A DNA stretch of 64,000 bases, from assembly GCF_030464345.1 (NCBI RefSeq), contig NZ_VCYH01000004.1, positions 186,001 through 250,000 of the forward strand, read 5' to 3'. Positions within the stretch are counted from its first letter, which is position 1. Each line of letters starts with the position of its first letter. Below the pieces are notes generated by a model that was not told where the DNA came from, ran no database searches, and saw only the letters and a list, made by a program, of their open reading frames with translations. Source of the stretch: Methanoculleus frigidifontis. GTDB taxonomy: Archaea > Halobacteriota > Methanomicrobia > Methanomicrobiales > Methanoculleaceae. A program made the translations under genes and the position numbers. Shown piece by piece: positions 9,042-18,639 of this stretch.

Positions 9042-9056
9042 CTAGGCTATTTCTAT

Positions 9057-9141
9057 GCCGAGGTAGTCTAGTCCGGGAAGGCGGCGGCCTCGAAAGCCGC
9101 TGGTGCTCGGCACCACGGGAGTTCAAATCTCCCCCTCGGCG
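9057..9141 (+). tRNA. tRNA-Ser (anticodon CGA)
   Basis: Acceptor arms GCCGAGG (9057-9063) and CCTCGGC (9134-9140) pair perfectly, with discriminator G at 9141. The anticodon stem GCGGC/GCCGC encloses loop CTCGAAA, giving anticodon CGA, which reads UCG serine. A long variable arm (TGGTGCTCGGCACCA) confirms a class II tRNA. The T loop TTCAAAT is present. CCA is not encoded; TTTT follows directly. The accessory region to the right begins at this tRNA. Confidence 0.97.
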
Positions 9142-9217
9142 TTTTGATCGTTTGCCTGCATGCCGTCGGCGTATTTTTCGCACGGAAGAGGCGTGTTTAT
9201 CCGTCTTCTTTCGAGTT

Positions 9218-11094: not shown

Positions 11095-11345
11095 AACCTC
11101 CTCTCCACTCCCGGCGAGACAGTCCACCGCGGTTCGGATCATATCGGCCGCCGACCCATCGCGGATCTGCCGGAGCCACCCCGGGCGTCGGCGGGCTGCC
11201 CGGTTCCCGGGCACCAGCAGATCGGTGCTGGTCATTGCGCAGAGGAATGCGAGAGATCCTCTTCGCCGCCAGTTCCTCGCGGCTGTACTGCCCGCTGCCG
11301 AACCAGAGCGGCACCGTCCCGTTCCGTATCCCCGTGCCCGGCGGC
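11095..11345 (-). pseudogene. Remnant A of an ArdC-type zincin (C-terminal part)
   Basis: The 567-bp gap 10823-11389 has no intact gene. Leftward translation gives LWFGSGQYSREELAA in one frame, then after a shift AFLCAMTSTDLLVPGNRAA and GWLRQIRDGSAADMIR. This order matches the end of ArdC/zincin-like antirestriction proteins (FGSxxYxREELVAE, AAFLCxxxGI, NxAAYxxxWLRxLR). The same peptide motif recurs in remnant B (16650-16885). The HExxH part is absent or unrecognisable here. ArdC genes usually travel on plasmids and integrated elements, so this marks an old mobile insertion. The family call is from memory of the motif pattern. Confidence 0.55.
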
Positions 11346-12234: not shown

Positions 12235-12322
12235 CCCCGGGTGAAGGATACCTCCCGCTCCCCGTGCCGCCATCGCGGGGCATGCGGAGATGCACCCTCC
12301 ACCGGCCTCGAACAAAGGCCGG

Positions 12323-12580
12323 ATTGCCCCTCTTTTTCGATTTTAACGACGGTTCCGGATCGCGATCTCCGGCATAATGATTCGGCGAAGAATATCGCCC
12401 CAATTGCCGAAAAACGGCAGTATCGCAGGGTAATAGCGGCGATATGCGGCCAAGTAATTTTGAGACGATATCTGGTATGGGTCGCCCCGGGATCGGCCGT
12501 CTGATGGCTTCTGTGAGGGTCGATTTCCCGGAGGATTGGGCCGGAATTAAGGGCATTTAAAGGTTACTTGACCGAAATGG
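12323..12580. repeat. 258-bp dispersed element, copy 1
   Basis: This segment pairs with 17359-17616: both are 258 bp, begin ATTGCC and end CGAAA(T/C)GGC. They share blocks such as CGATTTTAACGA, GGATCGCGATCT, GGCGATATGCGGC, GTAATTTTGAGACGAT and CTGTGAGGGTCG. By eye roughly three quarters of bases match without net gaps. Weaker similarity continues about 60 bp to the left. No ORF is convincingly conserved between the copies. The rest of the gap 12235-12622 shows nothing else. Confidence 0.75.
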
Positions 12581-12622
12581 CTGCCCGGGCAGCAGTCCCA
12601 AAAAGATCGCCGGAAAAAGAGG

Positions 12623-15600
12623 TTATTGATGCTTCTTCTCCATGAAGAAGAAGGCTGCTCCCGCGACGATCAGGATCGCGACGATTGCGACGATGATGTA
12701 CAGGAACGGGAGTGCTTCGGGCGTCGGCGTCACCGGCGCTGCGGGGGTCGTCGCGGCCCCTGTCGGAACGGCCGTCGTGATCTCCGTCGGGGTGGCCGTC
12801 GGCAGGGTGCCGGTCGTGTAGACGACCGCGAACGTACTGAAGTGCGTGACGGTGGCGGTCAGCGTTCTGGTAGCCGTGTTGACCCTGGTCGTGACGTTCT
12901 CCCAGATGCCGGTTGTTGTATTGTACCACGTGATCGTCGGCACCTCTCCGCCGGCGGTCACCCGGTTCCAGTCATCCTCGGTGAGCGTGACGGAGAGGCT
13001 GATGCCCGGGTCGAAGGTGGCGCCCGCGGGACTGCACTCATAGACGTAGCCCGAGATGCTGAAGAGGGCACCTGCCGAAGCGGGCGGCACCCCGCCGGCA
13101 TCTTCAATCCGCTGGAGGGCGATGCTGCCGAGGGCGCTGCCGTCCGCGTCGAGAGCCCGCACGCCTGCGTTCAGGGTGAGTTTGCCGGTGTCGTCACCCG
13201 TAACGACGGCGATCGAACGGGTCACGATACCGCTGTCGCTGACCGTCAGCGCGCCGCTTCCGTGATAGGTGGTGACGCTGCGGCTGCTGCCGCCACTGCC
13301 ACCGCTCCTGCCGCCGCCCGGGGCGGTGACGACGACCGGGCTCGGGGCGGTCACCGTGCTGAACCCGTAGGCGTTGCTGGCGTTCAGGGTAACCGTGTAG
13401 CTCCCTGCGGCGGTGTAGGTGTGGGTCGCGTTCCGGTCGGTCGAGGTTGTGCCGTCGCCGAAGGTCCATGCCCAGGCGGTGACGATGCCGGTGGAGGTGT
13501 CGGTGAACTGCACCGCAAGAGGAGCGTTGCCTTCGCCGGGGGCGTGGGTGAAGCCCGCCACCGGCGGCGAAGGCACGAGGGCGAAGGAGACCGGCGTCGT
13601 GGCGTTCCGCGAGACCGTCACCGACTCGTTCACGGCGGGCTCGTAGCCGTCCAGCACCACGGTGACGTTATAGGTTCCGGTGTCGAGATCGCTCAGGGTC
13701 GCGTTCGTGACCGAGGCGTTCAGGACGCCGTCGAGATAGATCCCCGCCCCCGCGGGCGTCGAGTTCACCTGAAGCGTGCCGGTGAAGTGGACGAGAGTCA
13801 GTGCCACGACCTCTGTCTCACCGGCGGTCAGGACGACCTCCCGGCCGGCGGGTTCGCACTCTGCATGGACGACCGTGACGTTGTACTCGCCTTCCGGCAG
13901 ACCGAAGACCGTTGCGTTGGTCGTCCTCCCGGTGGCAACGCCGTTGAAGGAAACGTTCGCGCCTGCCGGAACCGAGGTTACGGTAATCGTGCCGGTGCCA
14001 AACGACTGCCACTGGAAGATCGGATACTGGACTTTGTAGGGAGATACCCGCCAGATCTTTGCGGGATCTGCATCGGTGCTGATGATACTCGTAGACCAGT
14101 GCAGGCCGGGATCGCCGGTGAGGAAGGCAATGTCCCTGAATTTGGTGGGATCGGAGACATAGGTGCCGGCAGAACAATCGCCGCCGTTATAGTGCCGGTA
14201 ACAGTTGGTGATGGTGCCACGGTTATGCCCAACAAGACCCCCGGCATACTGATTGGTGGCAGTGGCACTCCCGATTGCATAGCAGCTTGTGATGGTGCCA
14301 AACTCGTTCTGCCCAACAAGACCCCCGGCATACTGATTGGTGGCAGTGGCACTCCCGGTTGCATAGCACCCCGTGATGGGGCCCAACTCGTTAAAACCAA
14401 CAAGACCGCCGGCCCCCCTAATCCCGGCAGTGGCAGTCCCGGTTGCATAACAGTTGGTGATGGTGCCCACACCGTTCCGACCAACAAGACCGCCGGCCTC
14501 CGTCATCCCGGCAGCGGCAGTCCCGGTTGCATAGCACCCCGTGATGGTGCCCACACCGTTCTTACCAACAAGACCGCCGGCACTAAAACCGACGGCAGCG
14601 GCACTCCCGGTTGCATAGCAGCTCGTGATGGTGCCCTGGTTCAGACCAACAAGACCGCCGGCATCAGAACTCCCGGCAGTGGCATTTCCGGTTGCAGAAC
14701 AGTTGGTGATGGTGCCATAGTTTGCACTGGCAAGGACACCTACATATCTCCGTCCGGATACACCGGCGTCCCCGGCCGCGATTTGAAGATTCCGGATCTC
14801 CGCACCTGAACCGTGAAAGCCGAGAAAGCCAAAGAAGCCGACACCATCAACACCGCTCTTATCCATCACAAAATCGCTGATGGTATGCCCCTGGCCGTCG
14901 AAAGTGCCGGTGAATTGGGTACTCCCATTCCCGATCGTCTCCGTCGGGCTCCCGGCAGAAAGGGAGATGTTATTGGTCACGATGAAATGGTTGTCCCAGT
15001 GTGCGGAATCGGTGGAAAGATAGATGACGTCATCCCGGGTGCTGATCCGGTAGGGATCGCCTGCTGTGCCAGTGCCGCCGCTGTACAGCGGAACCATGGT
15101 AAATGCAACGGTTTCCGTTCCGCCCGCCGCAAGGGTTACCACCGAAAAGGCCGGTGAGAAGGTGTTGTCTTCATCTTCAACCGTGACGTTGTACTCGCCT
15201 TCCGGCAGACCGGAGACCGTTGCGTTGGTCGTCCTCCCGGTGGCAACGCCGTTGAAGGAAACGTTCGCGCCTGCCGGAACCGAGGTTACGGTAATCGTGC
15301 CGGTGCCGAAAGACTGCCACTGGAAGATTGGATACTGGCCTTTGTAGGGAGATACCCGCCAGATCTTTGCGGGATCTGCATCGGTGCTGATGCTATCAGC
15401 AGACCAGTGCAGGCCGTCACCGGGTGTCGTGCCGGTGAGGAACGCGATGTCCCTGAATTTGGTGCGATCGGACACATAGGTGCCGGCAGAACAATCGCCG
15501 CCGTTATAGTGCCGGTAACCGTTCGTAATGGTGCCAGAGTTGTAACCAACAAGACCGCCGGCACAATGCGTGGCAGTAGTGGCACTCCCGGTTGCATAGC

Positions 15601-16498
15601 AGTTCGTGATGGTGCCCCCATGGTTCACACCAACAAGGCCGCCGGCAGAAGTATCGGCAGTGACACTCCCGGTTGCATAGCAGCTCGTGATGGTGCCATC
15701 ATAGTTGTAACCAACAAGACCGCCGGCATGAACAGCGCCGGCAGCGGCACTCCCGGTTGCATAGCAGTTTGTTATGGTGCCATATTTGGTGCGACCAACA
15801 AGACCGCCGGCATCACAATCGGCAGTGGCACTCCCGGTTGCAGAACAGTTTGTTATGGTGCCATGTTCGGTGTAACCAACAAGACCGCCGGCATACCTAT
15901 CACCAGCAGTGGCATTCCCGGTTGCAGAACAGTTTGTTATGGTGCCATGTTCGGTGTAACCAACAAGACCGCCGGCATGGTATCCCCCGGCAGTGGCACT
16001 CCCGGTTGCAGAACAGCTCGTGATGGTACCATCATAGTTGTAACCAACAAGGACACCTACAAGATTGAATCCAGATACGCCGGCGTCCCCGGCCGCAATT
16101 TGGAGATTCCGGATCTTCGCACCCGAACCAAGCAAGCCAAAGAAGCCGACACGATCAACACCGCTCTTATCCATCACAAAATCGCTGATGGTATGTCCCT
16201 GGCCGTCGAAAGTGCCGGTGAATCCGGTGCTGCCATTCCCGATCGTCTCCGTCGGGCTTCCGGCAGCGAGGGAGATGTGATTGGTCATAATGAACTGTTT
16301 GCTCCAGTTTGCAGCATCGGTGGAGAGAGCGATGACGTCATCCCGGGTGCCGATCTGGTAGGGATCGCCCGCTGTGCCGGTGCCGCCGCTGTACGCAGCG
16401 GCCGGCAGCACCAGGCACATGCCAAACAGGAGCGCTCCAAGAAGAAGAAGCCGAAAGGGCGATATATTGGTGCAGATACAGCCAGAGGTGTACCGCAT
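12623..16498 (-). CDS. Giant secreted surface protein: GLUG repeats, PEGA domains, PKD domain, C-terminal anchor
   Basis: This is a 1291-residue cell-surface protein. Order: signal peptide (ISPFRLLLLGALLFGMCLVL, cleavage after AAA), first GLUG beta-helix (AGGLVGYTEHGTITNCSATG-type units, about seven), cap RHYNGGDCSAGTYVS, PEGA domain (TSVPAGANVSFNG), second GLUG helix (about seven units) with the same cap and PEGA, a third PEGA (NSTPAGAGIYLDG), PKD domain (WTFGDGTTSTDRNATHTYT), a Gly/Ser hinge, an uncharacterised beta domain, a Thr/Pro stalk and a C-terminal membrane helix ending MEKKHQ. GLUG/PEGA/PKD proteins act in adhesion and cell-envelope structure. I start at 16498; an in-frame ATG at 16525 is possible. 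Confidence 0.88.
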   Translation of the reverse strand: MRYTSGCICTNISPFRLLLLGALLFGMCLVLPAAAYSGGTGTAGDPYQIGTRDDVIALSTDAANWSKQFIMTNHISLAAGSPTETIGNGSTGFTGTFDGQGHTISDFVMDKSGVDRVGFFGLLGSGAKIRNLQIAAGDAGVSGFNLVGVLVGYNYDGTITSCSATGSATAGGYHAGGLVGYTEHGTITNCSATGNATAGDRYAGGLVGYTEHGTITNCSATGSATADCDAGGLVGRTKYGTITNCYATGSAAAGAVHAGGLVGYNYDGTITSCYATGSVTADTSAGGLVGVNHGGTITNCYATGSATTATHCAGGLVGYNSGTITNGYRHYNGGDCSAGTYVSDRTKFRDIAFLTGTTPGDGLHWSADSISTDADPAKIWRVSPYKGQYPIFQWQSFGTGTITVTSVPAGANVSFNGVATGRTTNATVSGLPEGEYNVTVEDEDNTFSPAFSVVTLAAGGTETVAFTMVPLYSGGTGTAGDPYRISTRDDVIYLSTDSAHWDNHFIVTNNISLSAGSPTETIGNGSTQFTGTFDGQGHTISDFVMDKSGVDGVGFFGFLGFHGSGAEIRNLQIAAGDAGVSGRRYVGVLASANYGTITNCSATGNATAGSSDAGGLVGLNQGTITSCYATGSAAAVGFSAGGLVGKNGVGTITGCYATGTAAAGMTEAGGLVGRNGVGTITNCYATGTATAGIRGAGGLVGFNELGPITGCYATGSATATNQYAGGLVGQNEFGTITSCYAIGSATATNQYAGGLVGHNRGTITNCYRHYNGGDCSAGTYVSDPTKFRDIAFLTGDPGLHWSTSIISTDADPAKIWRVSPYKVQYPIFQWQSFGTGTITVTSVPAGANVSFNGVATGRTTNATVFGLPEGEYNVTVVHAECEPAGREVVLTAGETEVVALTLVHFTGTLQVNSTPAGAGIYLDGVLNASVTNATLSDLDTGTYNVTVVLDGYEPAVNESVTVSRNATTPVSFALVPSPPVAGFTHAPGEGNAPLAVQFTDTSTGIVTAWAWTFGDGTTSTDRNATHTYTAAGSYTVTLNASNAYGFSTVTAPSPVVVTAPGGGRSGGSGGSSRSVTTYHGSGALTVSDSGIVTRSIAVVTGDDTGKLTLNAGVRALDADGSALGSIALQRIEDAGGVPPASAGALFSISGYVYECSPAGATFDPGISLSVTLTEDDWNRVTAGGEVPTITWYNTTTGIWENVTTRVNTATRTLTATVTHFSTFAVVYTTGTLPTATPTEITTAVPTGAATTPAAPVTPTPEALPFLYIIVAIVAILIVAGAAFFFMEKKHQ
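13874..14105. repeat. Intragenic direct repeat, copy 1 (PEGA/cap module)
   Basis: It is nearly identical to 15182-15413 at a constant offset of 1308 bp (436 codons) with only scattered substitutions, for example over TTGGTCGTCCTCCCGGTGGC and GATACCCGCCAGATCTTTGC. It encodes the PEGA domain and the end of the preceding GLUG module. Confidence 0.85.
14190..14720. repeat. Tandem GLUG-coding repeats, array 2
   Basis: About seven degenerate units of roughly 72-84 nt. Each is recognised on the + strand by CCGGTTGCATAGCA(C/G) followed by GTGATGGTGCC and AACAAGACCGCCGGC. They encode the second GLUG helix of the surface protein. Confidence 0.8.
15182..15413. repeat. Intragenic direct repeat, copy 2
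   Basis: Partner of 13874-14105. The identity is much higher than between neighbouring GLUG units, pointing to a recent module duplication or ongoing gene conversion. Confidence 0.85.
15525..16050. repeat. Tandem GLUG-coding repeats, array 1
   Basis: About seven units of roughly 75-84 nt with the same core as array 2. Two units near 15840 and 15920 are almost identical (CAGAACAGTTTGTTATGGTG, then CCATGTTCGGTGTAACCAAC). Confidence 0.8.
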
Positions 16499-16548
16499 GG
16501 AGAACAAATGGGGATCTGCAGACATAAATGCGTATTTTTGCGCATGCC

Positions 16549-16557
16549 GATATAAGA
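16549..16557 (-). promoter_or_regulatory. TATA box of the surface protein gene
   Basis: CTTATATCG on the minus strand lies about 25 nt before the ATG at 16525 and 50 nt before that at 16498, so transcription should start near 16527. Confidence 0.45.
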
Positions 16558-16649
16558 ATTTGTATTTCTCAACCGGGCAATCGGCGAATCCCCCGCAAAA
16601 TAAGAGATTTCTCTCATTCACCTCCCCCAAAAGGCCCGTATGCCGGCGA

Positions 16650-16885
16650 TTCCCGGAAGGGCAGTTGCACCCGGGGGAAGAGGCAGGAACCCCGCCGGGC
16701 GTTGCCAGATCGCCCGGTTCCCGGGCACCGGCAGATCGGTGCCGGTCATCGCGCAGAGGAACGCAAGGCCCAGCTCTTCGCGGCTGTACTCCTCGCTGCC
16801 GAACCGGATCGCCCGGGGATCCCCGGCCGGTCGAGCCGGGAGGCGTGCCCGGCCCGGTGCGTGCGCTCGTGGAAGTAGGCCGCGT
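16650..16885 (-). pseudogene. Remnant B of an ArdC-type zincin, with HExxH
   Basis: Leftward translation gives AAYFHERTHRAGHASRLDRP, holding an exact HExxH zinc motif in the usual ArdC context (YFHELxHxTGHxSRL). After a frameshift it gives IRFGSEEYSREEL directly joined to LAFLCAMTGTDLPVPGNRAI; the normal VAEMxA link has been deleted. The upstream single-stranded-DNA-binding domain of ArdC is absent. It shares the TDLxVPGNRA stretch with remnant A, so the two descend from one ancestor. At least one frameshift and both ends missing make it non-functional. Confidence 0.62.
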
Positions 16886-16908
16886 GGCAGGCCTCGGCCG
16901 GAGACGAT

Positions 16909-16959
16909 TTGCAACGGTTGCAAACAGGGTTGCAAAGGGGGTTGCAATAGTGGTTGCAA
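16909..16959. repeat. TTGCAA array, left cluster
   Basis: TTGCAA occurs at 16909, 16918, 16930, 16942 and 16954: steps of 9, 12, 12 and 12 bp. The hexamer is palindromic. Units read roughly GGGTTGCAAAGG. The 12-bp step puts successive sites a little over one helical turn apart. Two single copies follow at 17052 and 17154. Confidence 0.85.
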
Positions 16960-17238
16960 AGAGATCGCGGACCGCGTTCCTCGACGATACAAAGATAATT
17001 CAGGATAATAAGATATTCCAAAAGAGATCGATCACAACGATCCAAGATCGTTTGCAACAATTTCCGGATCACACAGTTCGCCCGTTCCGGCTCCACCGGA
17101 AGAGTACCCCGATCGCGTGCACGAACCCGCGATTGTGTGTGTTTTCGGATCGATTGCAAACAAGAAAATCGAAAACTCCGATTCGGCTGCGAATTGGAAA
17201 TTACTCAGCACAACAGAGATTTCGCAGGCAAAAAGTGT

Positions 17239-17268
17239 TTGCAACCATGTTTGCAACCCCCTTTGCAA
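17239..17268. repeat. TTGCAA array, right cluster
   Basis: TTGCAA at 17239, 17251 and 17263 with exact 12-bp steps, followed by decayed units GTACAA (17275) and TTGCAG (17286). Together with the left cluster it brackets about 280 bp of unusually AT-rich sequence without a recognisable gene. Confidence 0.82.
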
Positions 17269-17358
17269 CTCCAGGTACAACCGTGTTGCAGCCGGTGTCC
17301 GGTCGCCGGCTCCGGGGTGCGGAGACCCGCCCTCCCATCGCCCCTGAAAGAAGGGAGA

Positions 17359-17616
17359 ATTGCCGCTCTTTTCCGATTTTAACGAAGGTTCAGGATCGCG
17401 ATCTTCAGCAAACGGATTCACCGAAGCATATGCCCCCGATTTCAGAACGACGCCAGAAACGCAGGGCCATATCGGCGATATGCGGCAGGGTAATTTTGAG
17501 ACGATGTTTTGTATGGCCCGCCCCGCGATCGTCCGTCTGAGGGCTCCTGTGAGGGTCGTTTTCTCGAAGTAGAGGGTCGGAATTCCCGATATTTAATGTT
17601 TGCTTGACGAAACGGC
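17359..17616. repeat. 258-bp dispersed element, copy 2
   Basis: Direct-orientation partner of 12323-12580 (offset 5036 bp). It lies between the TTGCAA arrays and the modA promoter. The rest of the gene-poor stretch 16499-17817 holds only the surface-gene promoter, zincin remnant B and the arrays described separately. Confidence 0.75.
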
Positions 17617-17817: not shown

Positions 17818-18639
17818 ATGCACATGCAACGACAGAACATTCTTGCCATCCTCACACTCGTCCTCGCCGGCTGTATCCTCTTCACCGGCTGCACCGGGAC
17901 GCAGTCCACGACCGTTACCGAACCCGCCGACGAAACCCTCTTCGTTTACTCCGGCGCCGGGCTGAAAGCCCCGATGCAGGAGATCGGAACCGTCTTCGGT
18001 GAAAAATACGGCGTTACCGTCGAGTACACCTACGCAGGCTCCGGAGCGCTCATCACCCAGATGGAACTTGCGCAGAAAGGCGACGTCTTCATTCCCGGCG
18101 GCACGCCCGACTACGCCATCGCAGTGAACAAAGGTCTCGTCAGCGACGACCCGCAGTACGTCGCCTACCACGTTCCCGTGATCGCCGTGGCGAAGGGCAA
18201 CCCGAAGAAGATCACCTGCGTCGAGGACTTCACGAAGTCCGGCGTCAAGGTCGCGCTCGGGGGCATCAATGAGACCGCCATCGGCAAGGCGGGAGACAAG
18301 CTCTTCAAGAAGCACGGCATCGCCGACGCAGTCGAGGAGAACGTCGTCCTCCGCGCACCCACCATCAACGAACTCATCGTGGCAATGAACATGGGCACCG
18401 CCGACGCCACGCTCATCACCATCGATAAGATGAACGTCCAGACGATGGAGGCCATAGAGCTCCCGCTGGAGGACAACATGGCGCTGATCGTCCCCATCGG
18501 CACGACCACCTTCACGAAGAAGGCGGATCTTGCCGGGCAGTACATTGACTTCGTCGCCTCGGACGAAGGAAAAGCGATATTCGCCAGACACGGTTTCCCC
18601 ACCTACCCCGACCCGACGTACGCAGGGATCATGCCATGA
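17818..18639 (+). CDS. modA: Molybdate/tungstate ABC transporter, substrate-binding lipoprotein
   Basis: This extracytoplasmic protein captures the oxyanion for the importer. The 273-residue product has a lipoprotein signal (ILAILTLVLAGCILFTGC) and then the ModA-like opening ETLFVYSGAGLKAPMQEIGT, with further family blocks FGEKYGVTVEYTYAGSGALI and VALGGINETAIGKAGD. Whether molybdate, tungstate or both are bound cannot be read from sequence. Start is uncertain: 17818 or 17824 fit the signal peptide, while 17770 would add a basic tail. The permease and ATPase genes follow, giving a complete importer. Confidence 0.85.
   Translation: MHMQRQNILAILTLVLAGCILFTGCTGTQSTTVTEPADETLFVYSGAGLKAPMQEIGTVFGEKYGVTVEYTYAGSGALITQMELAQKGDVFIPGGTPDYAIAVNKGLVSDDPQYVAYHVPVIAVAKGNPKKITCVEDFTKSGVKVALGGINETAIGKAGDKLFKKHGIADAVEENVVLRAPTINELIVAMNMGTADATLITIDKMNVQTMEAIELPLEDNMALIVPIGTTTFTKKADLAGQYIDFVASDEGKAIFARHGFPTYPDPTYAGIMP

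Follow-up and report, generated by a model that had tools for sequence, protein, structure and literature searches.

A dispersed non-coding repeat around a giant surface-protein gene of Methanoculleus frigidifontis and its possible part in the gain and loss of gene blocks

A giant surface-protein gene of Methanoculleus frigidifontis lies between two direct copies, e1 and e2, of a dispersed non-coding repeat that we call e. The pair is found in the stretch of 64,000 nucleotides analyzed here (the window), whose numbering is used in Table 1. We believe, with a probability of roughly 0.55, that e is a dispersed, non-autonomous element and that its direct copies flank blocks of genes that were gained or duplicated, which recombination between the copies helps to create or remove. 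At two loci, a single e in a relative corresponds to two copies of e and extra genes here, and at least one e site is empty in relatives. Taken together, mobility and recombination fit best as a reading of e. In our model, e would spread as a non-autonomous element that originated next to the 3' end of a separate gene, itself repeated, for which we coined the ad hoc name MADFV in this analysis. Direct copies would come to bound gained or duplicated gene blocks, recombination between them would help to create or remove those blocks, and the surface-protein gene would sit in one such e-bounded block beside tRNA-Ser(cga).

Table 1. Features around the surface-protein gene (window positions)
Feature	Position	Strand	Basis or remark
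tRNA-Ser(cga), left border of the extra block	9056..9142	+	
Remnant 1, upstream of e1 ("ArdC-like" in the earlier note)	11169..11310	-	DNA repeat
Element e1, copy 1 of the dispersed repeat	12274..12574	+	Repeat search and family profile
Variant of the right-end box in e1	12554-12573		CATTTAAA
Giant surface-protein gene between e1 and e2; GLUG, PEGA, PKD domains	12623..16630	-	Simple gene finder puts start at 16420
Remnant 2, upstream of e2	16683..16811	-	DNA repeat
Second dispersed repeat, unrelated to e, with inverted TTGCAA-rich arms; adjoins e2	16912..17306	.	Inverted repeat
Element e2, copy 2 of the dispersed repeat	17310..17609	+	Repeat search and family profile
Conserved sharp right end of e2; TATA-like TTAAATA on minus strand beside TTGCTTNAC	17590..17609	-	Alignment, end scan; putative promoter
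Solute-binding protein gene (modA-like), right border of the extra block	17818..18639	+	

The repeat pair and its family

A repeat search in the window aligned 12299-12572 with 17335-17608 on the same strand, over 274 ungapped nucleotides at 78% identity; e1 and e2 are 76 to 78% identical. The offset of 5036 equals that of the length-matched direct repeats which an earlier note, made from the letters of this DNA, had placed around the surface-protein gene, confirming them. Its 258-bp edges were close on the right (~7 nt past the repeat) but too short on the left (~25 to 50 nt inside it). Since BLASTN of e1 at E <= 1e-3 gave 42 matches in the window genome (G000), the pair is not a chance repeat; 16 further matches were found in G001, the sister species and the only other genome of the genus in the comparison set. 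Among the 67 copies compared for relatedness, e1 is closest to e2 and e2 to e1 (0.76). Both have an identity of only 0.57 to 0.58 to the single G001 copy at the same locus, and thus that copy need not be their direct ancestor. Their differences avoid the columns conserved in the family (10% versus 35%).

The remnants upstream of e1 and e2 are 76% identical, a divergence close to that of e1 and e2 themselves. This lends some support to the larger duplicated unit suggested earlier, but the stretch separating remnant from e differs between the two sites. The remnant pair is real as a DNA repeat, although the name ArdC found no support in Pfam. Apart from the remnant, the repeat search found no long common flank of e1 and e2. 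The TTGCAA-armed repeat (~395 bp) that adjoins e2 has more copies in the window genome and in G001, where it also adjoins an e copy (L045). The surface-protein gene contains an internal duplication at 13860-16394 with a period of ~1.31 kb and up to 94% identity.

A profile search found at least 44 copies in the window genome and at least 26 in G001, lower bounds given that 44 candidates were scored per genome. Across the family, 13 of 40 genomes had a match at E <= 1e-3. Ten of these, from a sister genus or from genera with a single genome, carry one to three copies each, of which several are partial, and a genome from another genus (G004) has nine weak matches. Phages, plasmids, and viral contigs gave no match, and we rejected a viral, phage, or plasmid source of e on that basis. 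Copies occur in both orientations and are spread over many unrelated spacers. None of the tallied copies overlaps a predicted gene by >60 nt (simple gene finder), placing e between genes. A further tally covers 58 copies that have a gene to either side. Copies within 1 kb of a tRNA numbered 2 of 47 in the window genome (1.3 expected) and 4 of 26 in G001 (0.8 expected), too weak an excess to claim tRNA-proximal insertion.

Length or edge filters left 54 copies for identity and gaps, 63 for the end scan, and 71 for the link to MADFV. The length of e is near constant at ~300 bp; 34 of the 54 long copies have no internal gap, and pairwise identity averages 64%. The right end is sharp, with information dropping from ~1.4 bits to mostly <0.4 within a few bases past TTGCTTAACC (63 copies), while the left end is gradual and starts at a G-rich/CCCTC hairpin. 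The right-end box is a degenerate TTAHATA on the minus strand. Upstream of 150 genes of the window genome, TTAHATA occurs 18 times in sense and 5 times in antisense, and the box may therefore act as a promoter; e1 holds only a variant of it.

Stops interrupt all six frames over 54 copies, in line with the earlier statement that no convincing ORF is shared. Nonsynonymous/synonymous-like ratios ran from 0.58 to 1.49, varying with frame and region (54 copies), and a 30-codon frame ending in the conserved right-end TAA had no distinct substitution pattern. We thus rejected e as a coding gene. The earlier proposal of a conserved non-coding element with more copies is borne out in the window genome and in a related one: further copies exist, no protein is conserved, and the right ends coincide sharply (63 copies).

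A structural role in the RNA sense, also suggested in that note, gained no support from covariation, consensus-structure, or folding-energy tests. Only 1 of 58 pairs had a two-sided change among six sequences, and nothing in 38 copies rose above column-shuffle controls. No consensus RNA structure emerged from 54 copies, and the folding energy of e equals that of the reversed sequence. Rfam gave no match at gathering level and two sub-threshold matches, neither within the core of e. With four null tests and no gathering-level Rfam match, e as a structured RNA family was rejected on structure.

The idea that e is mobile fared in a mixed way. Empty sites and scattered positions support it indirectly, but the analysis found neither a target-site duplication nor a terminal inverted repeat nor a transposase. 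The flanks of 63 copies, scanned for duplications of 4 to 12 nt against mismatched pairing, showed none at any fixed offset, the best value being ~4 SD among thousands of offsets. The alignment ends, read by eye, are not inverse to each other. No transposase or recombinase was linked to e, and none stood out among the neighbor genes listed.

Loci compared between relatives

The interval between tRNA-Ser(cga) and modA is 226 nt in Methanoculleus sp. SpSt-1212 (L155) and 750 nt in Methanomicrobiaceae archaeon M17C-73-02 (L151), two outgroups without e at this place. It is 792 nt with one e in G001. In the window, it is 8675 nt long and includes two copies of e that enclose the surface-protein gene, plus another 3 kb to the left of e1. 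At a second locus, the order MADFV-e-nuclease in G020 corresponds to MADFV-e-[7.1 kb]-e-nuclease in the window genome, and no second flank copy was seen there. The 7.1-kb block between the e copies encodes an N6-methylase and a CHAT protein, together with a protein that resembles type I specificity subunits. The seven-gene block (L052:4368-6247 and L027:28-4848), a candidate defense system, has these three together with four proteins lacking a Pfam match. At C2, two e dimers enclose an archaeal ATPase gene, and the related region of G001 (L045) contains a single e.

Adjacent copies <=20 kb apart share the same strand in 21 of 21 cases, versus 15 of 37 at >20 kb; such near neighbors frequently enclose additional genes. 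This tally covers 75 placements (44 from G000, 26 from G001, three partial G000 copies, and two of three from G023), with the nine weak G004 matches and the single matches of other genomes left out. Eight of the 21 near pairs come from the C7 and C2 clusters, partly by duplication; merging each cluster leaves about 15 groups, all same-strand. Local pairs are often mutual closest relatives, as are e1 and e2. In the C7 and C10 arrays, the flanks are duplicated along with e, and the same-strand pairs there were clearly made by segmental duplication. L028:1-19101 is occupied by an e array in which segments are duplicated; among its genes are, we assume, nucleotidyltransferase/HEPN toxin-antitoxin pairs. 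We tried and set aside inversion for the opposite-orientation copies in matching spacers (L104/L107, L041/L064): their identity of 57 to 58% ranks low, and they may equally well have been inserted independently or have diverged deeply.

The spacer next to a gene that we take to be ftr contains e in the window genome. BLASTN found no e in the same spacer of G001, and the profile found none in the eight sister-genus genomes examined. The window genome's spacer is longer by ~580 nt, more than e alone, and six of those eight genomes have other sequence of ~500 to 840 nt there. In these six (L121-L126), that sequence is repeat-like and partly common to several genomes.

Other copies are old. L030/L035 and L059/L036 occupy matching loci in both species at 76% identity and look inherited, as does, less surely, L054/L102, whose identity ranks only sixth. 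In the three pairs pooled, differences avoid conserved columns (37/288 versus 107/288), while L036/L059 alone shows no such avoidance. The pattern in several pairs suggests selection on the sequence of e itself, L036/L059 being without the effect. Separately, a 1060-aa gene at L031:5335-8514, presumably the replication factor C large subunit, has a stretch of ~1 kb, possibly an intein, that is missing in G001.

MADFV stop codons, where shown, are followed by a G-run/C-run hairpin. The profile placed a MADFV gene or its 3' remnant flush at the left end of 9 of 71 e copies. One further copy keeps 29 of 33 MADFV letters at the same offset (at most 23 after shuffling), and another has a MADFV remnant ~200 nt off. 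In all, MADFV is flush at about 10 of 71 copies, and the left end thus resembles the MADFV terminator hairpin, from which we infer that e arose beside the MADFV 3' end. Among the matches listed, sister-genus genomes repeat a two-gene unit of a small protein and MADFV, mostly without e. The unit (MADFV, 168 aa) recurs across the methanogen family among those matches, as at L052:3085-3947 and L089:5801-6735. The MADFV protein had no match in Pfam, NCBIfam, or PHROGs and no meaningful one among solved structures.

Explanations for paired copies

Segmental duplication at C7 and C10 raises the possibility, which we rate as rather doubtful, that e is a regulatory or chromosome-structural sequence carried along passively, with pairs arising only when ordinary duplications include it. 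The remnant upstream of e1 and e2, duplicated and diverged about as far as e, is consistent with this, as are the near-fixed length and the differences of several pairs, which avoid conserved columns; segmental duplication alone could yield same-strand pairs. However, e1 and e2 share no long flank past the remnant, and the block at the MADFV locus stands where a relative has a single e, with no second copy of a flank. Moreover, copies lie in many unrelated spacers, and one is missing in relatives. A small transcription unit is unlikely. It would have a TATA-like promoter at the right end and run leftward, giving a short RNA terminated at the left hairpin, as the sharp right end with its minus-strand TTAHATA and the sense bias of this motif (18 versus 5) would suggest; yet neither covariation, folding energy relative to the reversed sequence, nor Rfam at gathering level points to such an RNA, and e1 has only the variant box.

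The direct-orientation rule and the defense-like genes in blocks bracketed by e copies also bring to mind integrons, in which e copies would be attachment sites for gene cassettes cut by a putative integrase. This is very improbable, as e has no conserved attC-type inverted-repeat core and is longer than attC sites, and no integrase was noticed next to an array. A bolder extension of our own reading, in our view improbable, is that methanogens possess a gene-capture system: e copies would be its recombination sites, and a putative recombinase would insert and remove defense or surface-gene blocks, leaving single-e scars and e-block-e loci.

Known repeat classes and meaning

Like MITEs, e is short, non-coding, dispersed, multicopy, and intergenic, but it has neither terminal inverted repeats nor a target-site duplication, and no matching autonomous element is among the neighbors listed. 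REP/BIME elements, which are short and palindromic, are likewise intergenic, high in copy number, and often near gene 3' ends; e is much longer, not palindromic, and of near-fixed length. Integron attC sites are shorter than e. They resemble it in their direct orientation with genes between copies, but general structure tests found no paired core in e, and no integrase was noticed. Because e lacks the tested MITE and attC features, we filed it as neither. Archaeal integrons have been described (PMC9668308).

Dispersed non-coding repeats in archaea are little described, and our search of that literature, within the portions of text available, turned up none like e. If direct copies of e truly bound gained blocks, e would mark defense and surface genes that these methanogens acquired recently. 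The gain and loss of such genes could then be tested simply, through excision or loss between direct copies.
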